Source: a virus. Taken from it: 30,316 bases of DNA. The stretch lies in IMG/VR virus record IMGVR_UViG_3300018080_000446, positions 1 through 30,316 of that record. The stretch is one strand, 5' to 3'. The first letter of the stretch is position 1. Every line of letters starts with the position of its first letter. The notes under the pieces are model-generated. The model saw nothing but the letters and a program-made list of their open reading frames with translations. It had not been told where the DNA came from and did no database searches. The position numbers were made by a program, and so were the translations under genes. Below, piece by piece: positions 6,323-29,539 of the stretch.

Positions 6323-8157
6323 TACATCCGTCCCTCCAACCGTGCCGACCGCTCCCGTCGTTTCTGATCCATCACCAACGCCGCCGCCATCCTATCCTGG
6401 ATGATGATCGTATCGCCGCCAAAATTGTTATTCGTCTGCATCATCCGCCGCGTATCTCCTGCTGTCAGCACCTGCGCTCCCCTCGGCATCATCACCAGCT
6501 CCGGTCCCGCCTCGCCCACCAGCGCCAGCCCGCCCGGTGCGTACGTCGTCCCGTGCTGGTGCTGCTGCGCCCCGCTCCCGCCCGGCCGCTGCCCGTGCTC
6601 CTCGTATGTCACAGTCACATTGATCTCCCGCTCGATCCTGCTCAGCGCCGATTGAGCCGCGTTAGCGCTACCTTCCACCCCGGCCAGGCTGCCAGCTAAC
6701 CCGTCCATCGAACCTGTCAGCGCCGCTCCGGTCCCGTCTGCCTCAATCATCCCACTTTGCAACGTCTCCAGCGTCCCCTCCGCCTCAGCTGCCGCAATGC
6801 TTTGCTGTTGCGTTGCCATCGCCAGCCCATCGAACCCAGACTCCAACTGTTGCGCAGAGATCACCCCCTCGCCGAACGCCTCGACCAGGGCATACGCCTC
6901 CATTGTATTCTGAATCTCGGCCTGTGTCGCGATTCCCAGGTTTTGAGCCAGCGCACTCAACGCATCTATGCTCGCCCCGCTGGCTAGCGCCATATTCCAC
7001 AGCGTCTCGTTATCGAACGTCATCTCTCCGAACGACCCCGCCACTTTGCTCGCCGCCGTGCTCAGATCGTACAGCGCCTCTGCTGTCACGTTGCTCGAAC
7101 TCGCCGCCTGCTCGAACACCCCCGACAAATCCTCCTGGTGCCTGGCCAGCGTCGCGCTCTCCTGCGCCGCCTGGCGGGACGCATCGTTCGCCGTCTGCAT
7201 ACTGACCGCCCACCCGTCCACCTGGTGGCGTCCCATCTCCACCCACGCGCTCAAATCTTGCGTCTCGCCGCTCAGCGCCTGGATCGTATTGATCAACGCC
7301 CCAACGCCCGGTACCAACGCACCGATCGTCTTTTCCAACCCCCCCGACGATTCGCGTGCCTGCGAAAACGCCCGCTGGAACTCGGTGATCTCTCCCACGC
7401 CATCCGCCAAAATCCCCAGGAACGACGCGATCTCTGGCGCTAACCCCTCGCCAAATGCCGCCTTGAGATTCTTAACACTCGCGTCCAACTGCTCGAACGC
7501 CAGCGCCGCGTCGTCCGTCGCCGGTCCCAACCGCTCCATCGAAGCCTGGCCCTCTTCCATCACCGCCTGCATAAACGCCATCTCTCGCGTCAGCCCTGGC
7601 GTCGCCGCTTGCAACTCTTGGATCCGTGTTCGCACCTTGCCCGCGCTGATCCCGAACGTGTCCAGCCGAGGTATACTCTGGTTCGCCAGCAGGAGAGAGA
7701 ACTCCTCTATGCTGCTCGCCGCGTCCCGCCCCATCGCCGTACCGAGCCGGACCGCCATCTCTGTCACGTTGCCCAACTCTGCCGCGTTGTTGGCCAGCCC
7801 CATCTGCGCCAACTGGTTAGCCGCCGCCATCGCTTCCTGCTCGCTCAACGCCCCCCTGGTGGCCACCATCATCGCCTCCAGGTTCTGGCTCGCCTCCCCG
7901 GCCCCGCCGCTGATCGCCTCGAACGCCGCCTTGGTTCGCAAGCTCGCCGCGCCCAACTGGGCCAGCTCGAACGCCGCCTTGGCCGCCGCGACCACCCCGG
8001 CCGCAGTGATCGCGTTACCCAGCAAATTAGCCGCGTCGGAAGTCTCCTCCGCGCTCCCGCCCACGTCGTCTACCGCGTCCCCCACCTTGCCCAACGTCCT
8101 GCTAGCCTCATCCTTGGCCCGCAGCACCATCTCCAGAACGCTTTTACTCGTCGCCAT
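6322..8157 (-). CDS. Tail tape measure protein
   Basis: This 611-aa protein sets tail length and is ejected ahead of the DNA. It is almost entirely helical and rich in Ala/Gln/Glu, with long coiled-coil stretches such as MEAYALVEAFGEGVISAQQLES. The N-terminal MVLRAKDEASRTLGKVGDAV and the region LLGNAITAAGVVAAAKAAFE are typical of tape measures. Near the C-terminus lies the recurrent signature GGLALVGEAGPELVMMPRG. At about 1.5 angstrom per residue, 611 residues would give a tail of roughly 90 nm. It sits between the tail chaperones plus a moron upstream and the distal tail genes downstream. The ribosome site is weak (TAGGCG), and the upstream repeat and terminator suggest it may depend on read-through. 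Confidence 0.9.
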   Translation of the reverse strand: MATSKSVLEMVLRAKDEASRTLGKVGDAVDDVGGSAEETSDAANLLGNAITAAGVVAAAKAAFELAQLGAASLRTKAAFEAISGGAGEASQNLEAMMVATRGALSEQEAMAAANQLAQMGLANNAAELGNVTEMAVRLGTAMGRDAASSIEEFSLLLANQSIPRLDTFGISAGKVRTRIQELQAATPGLTREMAFMQAVMEEGQASMERLGPATDDAALAFEQLDASVKNLKAAFGEGLAPEIASFLGILADGVGEITEFQRAFSQARESSGGLEKTIGALVPGVGALINTIQALSGETQDLSAWVEMGRHQVDGWAVSMQTANDASRQAAQESATLARHQEDLSGVFEQAASSSNVTAEALYDLSTAASKVAGSFGEMTFDNETLWNMALASGASIDALSALAQNLGIATQAEIQNTMEAYALVEAFGEGVISAQQLESGFDGLAMATQQQSIAAAEAEGTLETLQSGMIEADGTGAALTGSMDGLAGSLAGVEGSANAAQSALSRIEREINVTVTYEEHGQRPGGSGAQQHQHGTTYAPGGLALVGEAGPELVMMPRGAQVLTAGDTRRMMQTNNNFGGDTIIIQDRMAAALVMDQKRRERSARLEGRM

Positions 8158-8187: not shown

Positions 8188-8287
8188 GTACGGGCGACGC
8201 ATTCCCCGCGTAACACCCGCAAAAAGACCCATCACCCACGCTCGAAACACCCGCCAAACGGCCCATCTCTTGGGAATGCGTCGCCCC
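8188..8287. repeat. 95-bp palindrome-ended repeat, copy A (MITE- or REP-like)
   Basis: A perfect 15-bp inverted repeat, GGGCGACGCATTCCC (8192-8206) and GGGAATGCGTCGCCC (8272-8286), bounds a 65-bp centre containing CACCCGCAAAAAGAC and CCCACGCTCGAAAC. A second copy of exactly the same length lies at 25688-25787. It has no ORF of its own that I would accept. It lies in the gap between the tape measure start and the upstream moron terminator. Confidence 0.8.
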
Positions 8288-8346
8288 AACGCCACCAGAG
8301 AAGCCCGCTAAGAACCGGAAAACACAAATCCCCGCCGATTCCCAAC

Positions 8347-8391
8347 AATAAAGAGCACAGAGACGCCGTACGACGCCCCGTGCTCTTTATT
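8347..8391 (-). terminator. Terminator of moron cassette 1
   Basis: A perfect 12-bp inverted repeat (AATAAAGAGCAC at 8347-8358 and GTGCTCTTTATT at 8380-8391) lies 20 nt past the stop of the 70-aa gene. On the minus strand the stem ends in TTTATTGTT. The 21-nt loop contains a second imperfect palindrome around CGTCGTACGGCG. It fits an intrinsic terminator, possibly bidirectional. Confidence 0.7.
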
Positions 8392-8410
8392 CCCGTGTTC
8401 CCGTGCCCCG

Positions 8411-8623
8411 CTAGATCGCCTCCACTGCCTCCTCGACCGTCGCCCGGAAAGCATCCCACATCACCGCGTTCTCCAATGGCGCGAACACCTCCCGCCGAGA
8501 CAGCACCCGCTGGTACATCCTGATCATGTCCATCAATTGCAACTGGCCGTGCACCTCCTCCGGCAACTCTGCCGCGATCGCCACCGCCTCGTCCATCAAC
8601 GCCTGCTTTTCCTGCTCGTTCAT
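8411..8623 (-). CDS. Small helical moron protein 1, unknown function
   Basis: This 70-aa acidic, predicted all-helical protein begins MNEQEKQALMDEAVAIAAEL and ends FRATVEEAVEAI. I chose the ATG at 8621-8623 because an AAGGA site precedes it and because the matching cassette at 24.3 kb starts with the same 'leader-GGC AAATG' junction. A longer in-frame reading up to 8740 would be translated from the structured leader and is rejected. The gene has its own promoter (8809-8837), a 179-nt structured leader and its own terminator, and it interrupts the tail operon between the tail chaperones and the tape measure. This is the layout of a moron. It may also act as a chaperone-region protein. I recognise no family. 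Confidence 0.65.
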   Translation of the reverse strand: MNEQEKQALMDEAVAIAAELPEEVHGQLQLMDMIRMYQRVLSRREVFAPLENAVMWDAFRATVEEAVEAI

Positions 8624-8802
8624 TTGCCAGAATCCTTTCTCCCAGAAGGGAACTAGAACGCCAAAGAGCCACAGTGGAAAAAACTTCCCGGATTCTGGCG
8701 AATCTGAGGGGCAGCCGCTCCACTGTGGCTCTTTGACCACAACGTGTAGGGTTGTAAATAGGAAGGCGGCAAAAAAGCCCCTTCATTGATTCGCCAGAAT
8801 CG
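8624..8802 (-). promoter_or_regulatory. Structured 5' leader RNA, copy 1 (ribosome-site sequestering)
   Basis: The predicted transcript starts at about 8802. In transcript order it holds: a palindromic hairpin GATTC-TGGC-GAATC (8801-8788); a hairpin with a U6 loop (8783-8763); a conserved TTGTGGTCAAAG segment; the 5' arm of a perfect 16-bp stem (8734-8719); element E2, GATTC-GCCA-GAATC (8704-8691), in that stem's loop; and the 3' arm (8678-8663). Last comes GGATTCTGGC (8635-8626), just before the ATG. E2 is fully complementary (14 bp) to the first hairpin and (10 bp) to the ribosome-site segment, so the two pairings are mutually exclusive. The copy at 24292-24467 keeps the same pairings with different bases. 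Confidence 0.7.
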
Positions 8803-8808
8803 CTTCTC

Positions 8809-8851
8809 ATTTTACCATACCCCACACCGCCAGTCAATAGAACACCCGTTC
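8809..8851 (-). promoter_or_regulatory. Sigma-70 promoter of moron 1 with upstream LexA-like box
   Basis: On the minus strand, TTGACT (8837-8832), a 17-bp spacer and TAAAAT (8814-8809) form a near-consensus promoter. Just upstream, GAACACCCGTTC (8840-8851) matches GAAC-N4-GTTC, the Gram-positive-type LexA/SOS box. It lies directly behind the stop codon of the tail chaperone extension (8852). A box upstream of the -35 could repress, or could serve another regulator. Confidence 0.7.
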
Positions 8852-9076
8852 CTATCCCCGCGCCACCGCCCCCATCTTGGACAGCATCACCCGCACGTCG
8901 TCCACCACGTGCGCCGGTGTCTCCATCAACTCGCGCCAGCTCCACCCCATCGAACGGCAGATCACCGCATCCGTCAGATCACTCGGCAGCACGCTACCGT
9001 TCCTGATCGCCACCTCCACCTCGACCTCGAAACGTGGCTTGATCTTCCGCGCTGCGCGTCCTCCGTGGGTTAAAAT
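8852..9076 (-). CDS. Tail assembly chaperone, frameshifted C-terminal (T-like) part
   Basis: An open frame with no convincing start runs from after a TGA at 9116-9118 to a TAG at 8852-8854. It is in the +1 (equivalently -2) frame relative to the upstream chaperone gene. The product (KIKPRFEVEVEV..., then VICRSMGWSWRELMETPAHV and DDVRVMLSKMGAV) looks like a true protein and like the second half of a tail assembly chaperone. The upstream gene's own tail (RGRGGGGDQER) looks artificial. Tail chaperone pairs made by programmed frameshifting (lambda G/GT; -2 in Mu) are known in this position. The slip must lie between 9115 and 8995, probably near 9020-9077; I cannot name the slippery site. No start with a ribosome site is present. 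The 5' coordinate given is approximate. Confidence 0.7.
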   Translation of the reverse strand: MLTHGGRAARKIKPRFEVEVEVAIRNGSVLPSDLTDAVICRSMGWSWRELMETPAHVVDDVRVMLSKMGAVARG

Positions 9077-23969: not shown

Positions 23970-24019
23970 AGAACACACGTTCTTTGCATACTATACCACA
24001 CATACCCCTAATCTGTCAA
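23970..24019 (-). promoter_or_regulatory. Consensus sigma-70 promoter with LexA-like operator at +1
   Basis: On the minus strand, TTGACA (24019-24014), an 18-bp spacer and TATAGT (23995-23990) preceded by TGG (extended -10) form a strong promoter. Immediately downstream, AGAACACACGTTCT (23970-23983) is a perfect palindrome containing GAAC-N4-GTTC and covers about +1 to +14. This is the classic arrangement for LexA-type repression. Confidence 0.75.
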
Positions 24020-24105: not shown

Positions 24106-24291
24106 CTAAGCACGCACAGCGTGCGCCAGCGCCTCGAACGCCGCCCCCATCACCCGCAACAACCGGACATCCGCCTCCCGGTCCGCACCACCGATCACCT
24201 CCAACGCCGCCGCGCACGCTTCCGCCAACAACGCGCACGTATCCCGCGACAACGCCACCACCGCAAACACGTCAATCTTTTCGATAAACAT
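24106..24291 (-). CDS. Small helical moron protein 2, unknown function
   Basis: This 61-aa protein begins MFIEKIDVFAVVALSRDTCA and is helix- and Ala-rich (LLAEACAAALEVIGGADREA; FEALAHAVRA). The ATG follows GGAGATGGGCAA, giving a GGAG site whose sequence is also the last element of the structured leader. Like the 70-aa gene at 8411-8623 it is a one-gene unit with a LexA-boxed promoter, a structured leader of about 176 nt and a terminator. The two proteins do not clearly resemble each other, although both are small and helical. This suggests that the control cassette, not the protein, is what is shared. Candidates include inhibitor or signalling proteins, but I do not assign a function. Confidence 0.65.
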   Translation of the reverse strand: MFIEKIDVFAVVALSRDTCALLAEACAAALEVIGGADREADVRLLRVMGAAFEALAHAVRA

Positions 24292-24467
24292 TTGCCCATC
24301 TCCTTTACTCTACTAAACGCAAAAGCCAGCAATGGCTGCACCTGTCCGGGAGATGGGCATCTCGCAGAGCGGGCAACGCGCCATTGCTGGCCTTTGACCA
24401 CAAAATATACAATTGTGGGGTGAGGGACAAGCGCAAAAAAAACCGCTCCCCAGAGATGCCCATCTCA
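24292..24467 (-). promoter_or_regulatory. Structured 5' leader RNA, copy 2 (ribosome-site sequestering)
   Basis: From the predicted start at about 24467 the order matches copy 1: hairpin GAGAT-GGGC-ATCTC (24466-24453); a hairpin with an A8 run on the plus strand, so U8 in RNA (24450-24424); TTGTGGTCAAAG; stem arm (24395-24380); E2, GAGAT-GCCC-ATCTC (24363-24350); stem arm (24336-24322); and GGAGATGGGC (24303-24294) before the ATG. E2 pairs fully with the first hairpin (14 bp) or with the ribosome-site segment (10 bp). The E1/E2/E3 bases differ from those of copy 1, but every pairing is kept. Confidence 0.7.
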
Positions 24468-24473
24468 CCCCAA

Positions 24474-24517
24474 ATTATACCACACCTGCCTCCTTCTGGT
24501 CAATAGAACACTTGTTT
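24474..24517 (-). promoter_or_regulatory. Consensus promoter of moron 2 with upstream LexA-like box
   Basis: TTGACC (24503-24498), an 18-bp spacer and a perfect TATAAT (24479-24474) preceded by TGG form a strong extended -10 promoter. GAACACTTGTTT (24506-24517) is a one-mismatch GAAC-N4-GTTC box in the same relative position as at 8840-8851. The sequence TCAATAGAACAC is shared with copy 1. Confidence 0.75.
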
Positions 24518-26324: not shown

Positions 26325-27176
26325 TTACGTCCAGCACGGCCCATCACCACACAAAAGTGGTATCTGTACAGCATTATTTACTCTCTCCCTCTTTGCGTCA
26401 TCCTCAAGATTCGCTGCGCTCAATGCACCACCGTGTTTATAAATAAAAATCTGATCTGACGTGCTACCGTCACCCGCAAGTGGATTATGCCTATTGGCAT
26501 CGTCAAAACGTACCGCCTCTTTCCATTCGTCTGGAGATTCGCTACACATCTGTAGCCATTCTGATGCTGGGCGGTAAGGACAGCAGATACAAGCAGATTT
26601 GCTCGGAACTGGCAAGCCGAAAGATTGCAGATAGTCTATACAATCCTGGCGCGTCATTTTATGCTCTAACAAAGGAAACCTCTTGACGATAAATTTAACG
26701 CGACTGGGTTTCATTCTTGTGAACTCTTCCAGTGTGAAGCCGTAGGATTGTTCAACGCTGCCAGGCCGAGGGTGCGGCGCTTTTGATTTGTGAAATCCTA
26801 GTAATTCGCGTATCCTTCGCTTCGATGGATCAACTTTAAAATGTCGCGTACACTGACGCTTCAAAGGGCCACCAGTGGAACTCCAAAACGGAATATGTAT
26901 ATGATCTGCGGCACCGTCCTCTCGAATGTCGCCGCCGCTCACAATCTCAACACGCATACCGTGCTCACGAAAATAGTTAGTGTACCAATCGCGTATCTCT
27001 CTCGTGTGGTATCGTTCAAAGTTTGTGTCTGAATGAATGATAGCATCGAATGGCTCTATCAATCCCATAACGCTCATCACGCCAACTGTTGTTGATGGCG
27101 CTCCACATCCCCACGCTAACACGCGGTATACTTCTCCGTTCATCGCGCTCCACGTTATTCCTTCCACAATCAACAT
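26325..27176 (-). CDS. PAPS-reductase-like ATP-pyrophosphatase (phage family)
   Basis: This 283-aa protein belongs to the adenine nucleotide alpha-hydrolase group. The PP-loop is AWGCGAPSTTVGVM (about residues 21-34), a variant of the SGGxxS loop. It is followed by AIIHSDTNFERYHT, and RQCTRHFKVDPSKRRIRELL (108-127). The segment RMKPSRVKFIVKRFPLLEHK (154-173), DCIDYLQSFGLPVPSKSACI and CCPYRPASEWL form the Cys-rich end of the phage 'PAPS reductase/FAD synthetase-like' proteins. Such enzymes activate a substrate with ATP and often move sulphur. Roles in nucleic acid modification are suspected, and the phage substrate is unknown. ATG 27176 has a weak site; an ATG at codon 12 (27143) with GGAG upstream may be the true start. 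Confidence 0.85.
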   Translation of the reverse strand: MLIVEGITWSAMNGEVYRVLAWGCGAPSTTVGVMSVMGLIEPFDAIIHSDTNFERYHTREIRDWYTNYFREHGMRVEIVSGGDIREDGAADHIHIPFWSSTGGPLKRQCTRHFKVDPSKRRIRELLGFHKSKAPHPRPGSVEQSYGFTLEEFTRMKPSRVKFIVKRFPLLEHKMTRQDCIDYLQSFGLPVPSKSACICCPYRPASEWLQMCSESPDEWKEAVRFDDANRHNPLAGDGSTSDQIFIYKHGGALSAANLEDDAKRERVNNAVQIPLLCGDGPCWT

Positions 27177-28609: not shown

Positions 28610-28809
28610 TACAATCCCCCTTGAGGCATCCTGCCCGCCCGGCTCGCTGCCTCCATCCGCATCCTGCGGTTCACCGTCTCTACCTCCACCAACTCCCGCC
28701 GCAGCCGCTCCACCTCACCCACCAACCAGATCACATCATCCATCCGTGCCCGCCCAGGATGCTCTCTGATCCGCCACAACCGCTTATCTCCTCTCAAATC
28801 GTTACACAT
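28609..28809 (-). CDS. Small coiled-coil protein in the partition operon
   Basis: This 66-aa protein begins MCNDLRGDKRLWRIREHPGR at an ATG inside the parA end (8-nt overlap) with GGGGGG upstream; the longer reading from 28842 overlaps parA more deeply and has no site. The middle is a coiled coil (IWLVGEVERLRRELVEVETV) and the end is basic and flexible (RMRMEAASRAGRMPQGGL). Lying between parA and the RHH gene, it may be an adaptor of the partition complex. I do not recognise it. Confidence 0.65.
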   Translation of the reverse strand: MCNDLRGDKRLWRIREHPGRARMDDVIWLVGEVERLRRELVEVETVNRRMRMEAASRAGRMPQGGL

Positions 28810-29539
28810 CCAACACCCCCCACACAACCCCGGCATACTCACCCGCCGCCCGGCTCTCTGGATCGTGCTCGAAAATCGTCAGTCCCATTGCCGGGCACTC
28901 CCGCAGCACCGCCGCCCGGTGGATCGGCTCCAACACACACTCCCCGAACGTCGCCCGCAGCGCCGCCAAATTCGCCGCGCTCTCCCGCGTTACCTCGTCA
29001 TAGAACGTCGGCAGGATCCGCACCAACGGAGGCCGAGGTCGCCGCAGCGCCTGCAACGTCGCCAACACCTCCCGCACCCCCTCCAGACTCAAATGATCCA
29101 CCGCAGAGGGCACGATCAACACATCACAACACCACAGCGCGTTCTCCTGCAACCCGCCCGCGCTGGGAGCCGTGTCCATCACCAGATAATTCAGCCCCCC
29201 GTTGATCCGCTCACCGAGCAGCTCCCCCAACGTCCGGCAGCCCAACCCCTCCACCACCATCAACGTCTCCGCCGTCCGCGTACGCTTGCTCCCCGGCAGC
29301 AACCACAACTCGTCACGCCCCGTCATCCGCACCACATCCCGCAGCGTCGGCCCATTCACCAGCAGATCGAAAACCCCGTCCCCCTGGCCGATCCCCAAAT
29401 GACTCGCACACTGCCCCTGTGGGTCCAGGTCCACCAACATCGTCGCGTAATTCTTCAACGCCAACCCGTGCGCCAGCGTCACCGCCGTCGTCGTCTTGGC
29501 CACCCCGCCCTTTTGATTCGCTACCGCAATCCTAATCAT
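28802..29539 (-). CDS. parA: ParA-type partition ATPase
   Basis: This 245-aa ATPase carries the deviant Walker A KGGVAKTTT at residues 10-18 (with Ala where Gly is more common), DLDPQGQ at 37-43 and Walker B YLVMDTAPS at 118-126, then IVPSAVDHLSLEGV. It lacks an N-terminal DNA-binding domain, so it belongs to the short (type Ib) or bacterial Soj-like group. It would move DNA along the nucleoid together with the RHH protein and the iterons. A GGGGGATG segment near the ATG and the upstream gene's stop 1 nt before it suggest coupling. A partition cassette in a phage suggests extrachromosomal lysogeny, although chromosomal prophages can also carry parA. Confidence 0.9.
   Translation of the reverse strand: MIRIAVANQKGGVAKTTTAVTLAHGLALKNYATMLVDLDPQGQCASHLGIGQGDGVFDLLVNGPTLRDVVRMTGRDELWLLPGSKRTRTAETLMVVEGLGCRTLGELLGERINGGLNYLVMDTAPSAGGLQENALWCCDVLIVPSAVDHLSLEGVREVLATLQALRRPRPPLVRILPTFYDEVTRESAANLAALRATFGECVLEPIHRAAVLRECPAMGLTIFEHDPESRAAGEYAGVVWGVLDV

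Follow-up and report, generated by a model that had tools for sequence, protein, structure and literature searches.

What is a complete transcription unit doing inside the tail operon of a phage, and what is the function of the structured leader that precedes its small gene? Both questions are raised by cassette A, found at 8347-8851 on the minus strand of the window, the whole 30,316-nt stretch of uncultivated phage DNA analysed here (IMGVR_UViG_3300018080_000446, positions 1 to 30,316). The cassette lies between the second tail-chaperone frame (end 8852) and the tape measure gene (start 8157), and consists of an operator-like dyad, a sigma70 promoter, a 178-nt leader, a 70-aa ORF and a terminator.

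A self-contained unit in the tail operon

An earlier, sequence-only reading had described an autonomous promoter-leader-ORF-terminator unit at this position, and every one of its parts was located on the minus strand:

8840..8851, minus strand: operator-like dyad GAACGGGTGTTC, adjoining the -35 element; type of the Bacillus LexA box GAACN4GTTC (PMC4234289)
8809..8837, minus strand: promoter TTGACT-17-TAAAAT with extended -10 (TGG), from a promoter scan; TGGTAWAAT shared by the five complete copies
8788..8801, minus strand: E1, palindromic hairpin at the 5' terminus (predicted +1), proposed decoy of the ribosome site
8762..8784, minus strand: P2, hairpin with a U-run loop, its form conserved in all five complete copies
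8738..8756, minus strand: P3, conserved hairpin ACAAC...GUUGU
8660..8737, minus strand: rod P4, 20 bp, with E2 at its tip and covarying stem pairs
8691..8704, minus strand: E2, proposed masking element, able to pair over 14 nt with E1 or over 10 nt with E3
8626..8638, minus strand: Shine-Dalgarno (SD) sequence AAAGGA and E3 GGATTCTGGC (E3 = 8626-8635), followed by AAATG
8411..8623, minus strand: ORF A1, 70-aa acidic helical protein, ATG at 8623
8347..8391, minus strand: terminator, perfect 12-bp stem with arms 8347-8358/8380-8391

The TTGACT-17-TAAAAT promoter that had been read from the sequence is present at 8837-8809 and is the sole promoter-like site in a scan of 8200-8950 (10/12 matches, 0.1 expected). 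The arms of the terminator pair fully over the 12 bp originally claimed, with the U-run inside the stem and not 3' of it. Two lengths required correction: the leader measures 178 nt and not 179 nt if +1 is position 8801, and the stem given as 16 perfect base pairs is a rod of 17 perfect base pairs, or 20 with G-U pairs. The position of the terminator upstream of the tape measure gene implies that late transcription must antiterminate at this site or that the tape measure gene needs a promoter of its own. Between these two features lies a MITE-like inverted repeat, GGGGCGACGCATTCCC / GGGGAATGCGTCGCCC, at 8272-8287 and 8192-8207 (minus strand) of the window; as a host marker its motif was found in 2 of 251 genomes, approximately the chance level, and it is too rare in the sampled Chloroflexota to mark the host.

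One leader element with two possible partners

The leader of cassette A folds with a minimum free energy (MFE) z-score of -6.6 relative to shuffled sequences, and at its centre is an element that can pair in two ways. E2 (8691-8704) matches the reverse complement of E1 (8788-8801) at all 14 nt, while E3 GGATTCTGGC (8626-8635), the start of which lies within the Shine-Dalgarno sequence, is complementary to E2 over 10 nt, so that both complementarities previously ascribed to the loop, to the 5' hairpin (14 bp) and to the ribosome-site segment (10 bp), were found. The pairings are mutually exclusive, E2 taking either E1 or E3. The leader was also considered as coding sequence and this was rejected: a GTG frame from TTGTGGTC enters the ORF in copies A1 and A2, is out of frame in B1, and has no start at that place in B2.

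Copies of the cassette in this and other phages

A second complete copy, cassette B, is located at 24.3 kb in the window, with the layout of cassette A and different letters:

24506..24517, minus strand: operator-like dyad AAACAAGTGTTC, 7/8 positions of GAACN4GTTC
24474..24503, minus strand: promoter TTGACC-18-TATAAT
24453..24466, minus strand: E1 GAGATGGGCATCTC
24350..24363, minus strand: E2 GAGATGCCCATCTC
24294..24303, minus strand: E3 GGAGATGGGC, overlapping the SD
24106..24291, minus strand: protein B1, 61 aa
24064..24092, minus strand: terminator GCGCCGGG...CCCGGCGCTTTT

Directly after cassette B is a third strong promoter, TTGACA-17-TATAGT (window 23971-24000, minus strand), with GAACGTGTGTTC just downstream.

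Altogether, five complete copies were found in three related phages: those at 8.6 kb and 24.4 kb of the window, L094, L287 and L008. L094 and L287 reside on one 40.5-kb viral contig, which represents the second phage, and were recovered with promoter and hairpin patterns and with a detector that requires an element X, its reverse complement and X again (X...rc(X)...X), together with an SD, a start codon and an enclosing stem. Run on 2.5 Mb of collected viral DNA, the detector matched only true cassettes among the loci assembled by that stage. A covariance model built from these first four copies (two in the window, L094 and L287) identified the fifth, L008, in a phage whose terminase is 54% identical, as well as a sixth, decayed copy, L380, in a Chloroflexota metagenome-assembled genome (MAG).

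No further complete member was found with the model in 400 Chloroflexota genomes, where the one match (L330) was due to chance, or in 396 genomes of one class, where L380 proved real but decayed and L381 a chance match; 24 genomes from the family to which the L380 genome belongs yielded nothing new. Pattern searches of viral contigs gave no complete members beyond L094 and L287 among the matches listed, and neither a pattern search of genome contigs nor DNA and protein searches of INPHARED added any. Rfam had no match to the window at the gathering score, and for 8300-8900 only chance matches at E values up to 10. The pairing leader is very probably a real RNA switch, not described before, that serves small phage proteins.

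Pairing is maintained by compensatory change

The absence of these pairings from homologous phages had been named as grounds for discarding the proposal; instead, the pairings are present there, with compensatory changes. In a 38-column alignment of the E elements, the register of which was set by hand from the leaders, E1 reads GATTCTGGCGAATC, GAGATGGGCATCTC, GAGACAGCATCTC, GAGCAAGGCAGCTC and GAGCATCGCAACTC in the five complete copies, and E2 changes in step. E1:E2 is paired in 68/69 cells (98.6%), with double changes at 9/14 pairs, and its covariation score of 0.69 (0.16 in shuffles) was reached by none of 500 shuffles; sliding the partner as a control lowered pairing to 26-41%. E2:E3 is paired in 47/49 cells (95.9%), with double changes at 6/10 pairs and a covariation score of 0.72 (0.14 in shuffles), a value matched by 0-1 of 500 shuffles. 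Over the copies, E1:E2 extends for 13-16 nt and E2:E3 for 10-12 nt, and for each of four leaders 0/1000 dinucleotide shuffles contained X...rc(X)...X with elements of 9-10 nt. L008, the most distant copy, has one mismatch each in E1:E2 and E2:E3, and the length of its exact repeat does not exceed that seen in shuffles. E1 and E2 are themselves palindromic, and the covariation of their arms is partly shared with their own hairpins; this does not hold for loop columns 6-8, and the changes in step at these columns are therefore explained only by E1:E2 or E2:E3 pairing. The alignment of copies also revealed compensated changes in the rod and a nearly constant P3, and in four copies the flanking AAAGGA and AAATG do not vary. 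We hold with high confidence that the pairing system is real.

Pairing is also specific to each copy. Among the first four copies, the native duplexes range from -23.6 to -27.7 kcal/mol for E1:E2 and from -18.5 to -22.4 kcal/mol for E2:E3, whereas no cross-copy duplex is stronger than -16.8 kcal/mol, native E1:E2 being stronger by at least 6.8 kcal/mol. Because of this difference, two cassettes of one phage should not cross-regulate.

The encoded proteins

The proteins form two weakly conserved sets, A1/A2 (70 and 79 aa) and B1/B2/L008 (61, 84 and 88 aa), and all five are acidic (pI 4.4-4.9, charge -3 to -8). The structure model of A1 has three helices (pLDDT 71), and that of B1 is a helical hairpin of generic fold (pLDDT 82). 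Neither A1 nor B1 had a match in Pfam, PHROGs or INPHARED, a fold search with B1 gave no meaningful match (a Rop variant at Z 6.1, a level flagged as not meaningful), and weak profile matches to proteins in Chloroflexota had no leader nearby. Small acidic proteins expressed from a strong autonomous promoter hint at a possible role in counter-defence.

A proposed switch and its alternatives

In the five copies, the E1:E2 state lies below the E2:E3 state by 3.5, 4.1, 2.8, 1.9 and 4.0 kcal/mol. The nested MFE lies above either state in every copy; the energy of a state here is that of the duplex plus the fold of the remainder and includes no loop or pseudoknot penalty. E1 starts 6-7 nt past the -10 element in all five copies, which fits a 5' end at 8801 and predicts that E1 is transcribed first; E2 follows after ~100 nt, and E3 after a further ~55-65 nt. 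Because E1 is made before E2 and E2 before E3, and because E1:E2 is slightly more stable, the default should be E1:E2.

We propose that the transcript starts at or beside E1, as a small palindromic hairpin that would copy the ribosome site and its spacer, and that E2, displayed at the tip of the 20-bp rod and ending in an anti-SD sequence, could pair either with E1 or with E3 in the SD region. In the nascent mRNA, E1:E2 would form by default and leave the SD free (ON). Removal of E1 by 5' decay or processing, or its occupation by a ligand, protein or RNA, would release E2 to mask the SD (OFF), and P2, with its conserved U-loop, and P3 are possible binding sites for a protein acting on E1. From these features we infer the effect on translation, the default state, the trigger and an advantage in making a small acidic protein for a short time, perhaps in anti-defence. 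The sequence-only reading had assigned a similar logic to the leader, in which pairing of the loop with the 5' hairpin frees the ribosome site; what the copies bear out is that its two alternative helices are both kept, conserved and covarying. Judged from sequence, cassette A is an autonomous moron, and its leader is probably a translational switch that acts in cis through three elements: the decoy of the ribosome site at the 5' end would titrate the masking element, with ON as the default.

The same energies bear on a switch with the opposite default, in which newly made mRNA is OFF (E2:E3) until it is switched ON by an event favouring E1:E2, such as a kissing complex between E1 and E2 stabilised by a protein, or cleavage of the rod by an RNase, as in inert type I toxin mRNAs. 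The two states are only 2-4 kcal/mol apart, E3 can pair without the prior opening of a hairpin, and inert primary transcripts are common among type I toxin mRNAs (PMC11228461). However, all five copies favour E1:E2, which is able to form first during transcription, and the proteins are acidic and not hydrophobic toxins, and we consider this arrangement unlikely.

E1 might instead serve mainly in mRNA stability, with the 5'-terminal hairpin or the E1:E2 duplex shielding the 5' end and the match of E2 to E3 a by-product of an SD-like E1. Its location at the predicted +1 in all copies would suit such a role, as would the reduced mRNA stability of timP pseudoknot mutants (PMC11228461), but stability alone would not require that E3 be complementary to E2 over 10-12 nt, past the SD and with compensatory changes, which makes this explanation improbable. 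Still less probable, to the point of being remote, is a type I toxin-antitoxin locus, in which a structured toxin mRNA is opposed by an antisense RNA: while the small protein, the highly structured leader, the possible SOS-type operator and the copy-specific pairing elements would be in keeping with one, a simple consensus scan of 8200-8950 detected no plus-strand promoter-like site, and the helical proteins, with the acidic pI values given above, lack a membrane toxin profile, none of the five being a small hydrophobic membrane toxin of the timP/hok type. Finally, E1 and E3 are direct repeats of 9-10 nt that differ at each insertion, as target-site duplications of an inserted element without regulatory role would be, but this explanation was rejected, since E2 lies within the element and covaries with both, and since the AAAGGA and AAATG flanks are constant in four copies.

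Relation to known systems

In translational attenuators such as the ermC leaders, pairing of segments 1 and 2 frees segment 3, while pairing of segments 2 and 3 masks it. The decoy switch proposed for cassette A shares this logic of a chain of segments, but operates without a conserved leader peptide and through a pseudoknot with a rod-displayed element.

The closest known mechanism is that of the timP mRNA of the type I toxin-antitoxin locus timPR, in which a long-range SL1:SL3 pseudoknot, supported by covariation, is essential for translation from a masked SD, and which likewise possesses mutually exclusive structures (PMC11228461). In timP, the pseudoknot comprises 7 bp, the SD is held in a separate stem-loop, SL4, and an antisense RNA, TimR, is involved (PMC11228461). 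In cassette A, by contrast, direct pairing of E2 with either of its partners, the SD or the 5' decoy, spans 10-16 nt, there is no evident antisense RNA, and the host group and type of protein are different. The AapA3 mRNA of Helicobacter pylori is similar in that alternative short SD-sequestering structures act during transcription, but there metastable hairpins hide the SD of the toxin (PMC6733600), while the 5'-end SD decoy proposed here would unmask it. Phage morons are likewise autonomous promoter-gene-terminator units between late genes, at differing sites in related phages (PMC7067206), but we found no description of a long switch leader common to two cassettes per phage.

It is possible, though we put this forward tentatively, that these leaders constitute a new class of phage RNA, in which a 5'-terminal decoy holds a rod-displayed anti-SD away from the real site, copy-specific sequences keep two cassettes in one genome from cross-regulating, and the small helical proteins might bind the E1-E2 complex and so complete a feedback loop. 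If this is true, phages possess a portable, compact RNA device that uses decoy pairing at the 5' end to set the translation of accessory proteins, its lock-and-key sequences are naturally orthogonal, and the question of how morons stay quiet or pulsed becomes directly testable. The signature X, rc(X) in a rod, and X with an SD would then be searchable for more members and their small proteins.

Mobility, operator and host

The moron reading is borne out by the promoter and terminator of cassette A and by its junctions in a related phage, G003. The gap between chaperone and tape measure is ~694 bp in the window and 60 bp in G003, whereas that between tail protein and chaperone is 52 bp in the window and ~638 bp in G003, where cassette A, preceded by a large inverted repeat, separates the major tail protein from the chaperone. 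It follows from these reciprocal clean junctions, at two different intergenic sites, that cassette A was acquired or relocated in one piece. In both phages, cassette B occupies the same region, upstream of the terminase.

The description of the promoter as LexA-boxed is supported only in part. The Bacillus-type LexA operator GAACN4GTTC (PMC4234289) is perfect in A1 and B2, has one mismatch in B1 and A2, and is absent from the promoters of L008, in the third phage, and of the MAG remnant. In the window and in G003 alike, the unit that follows cassette B has another perfect dyad at its promoter; the orthologous dyad of G003, GAACATTAGTTC, is at 7626. These sites make it plausible that the lineage of the window and G003 has a common repressor, either LexA or one belonging to the phage; the LexA-type dyad is not part of the definition of the leader.

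The MAG remnant (L380, 1440-1640, plus strand) retains the extended -10, P3, the rod and a perfect 13-nt E1:E2, while its E3 is damaged and no ORF follows. Because its contig carries ordinary chromosomal-type genes and a truncated DNA methyltransferase, with AAATCTGCT-type repeats beside the leader copy, it may be a prophage scar, and as the only host lead it hints at Chloroflexota. The window encodes a ParA-type ATPase (28802-29539, minus strand), no integrase was noticed among its examined ORFs, and the phage is possibly a phage-plasmid. It also encodes a phosphoadenosine phosphosulfate reductase-like protein at 26325-27176 (minus strand; PHROG 424, E 1.6e-22).
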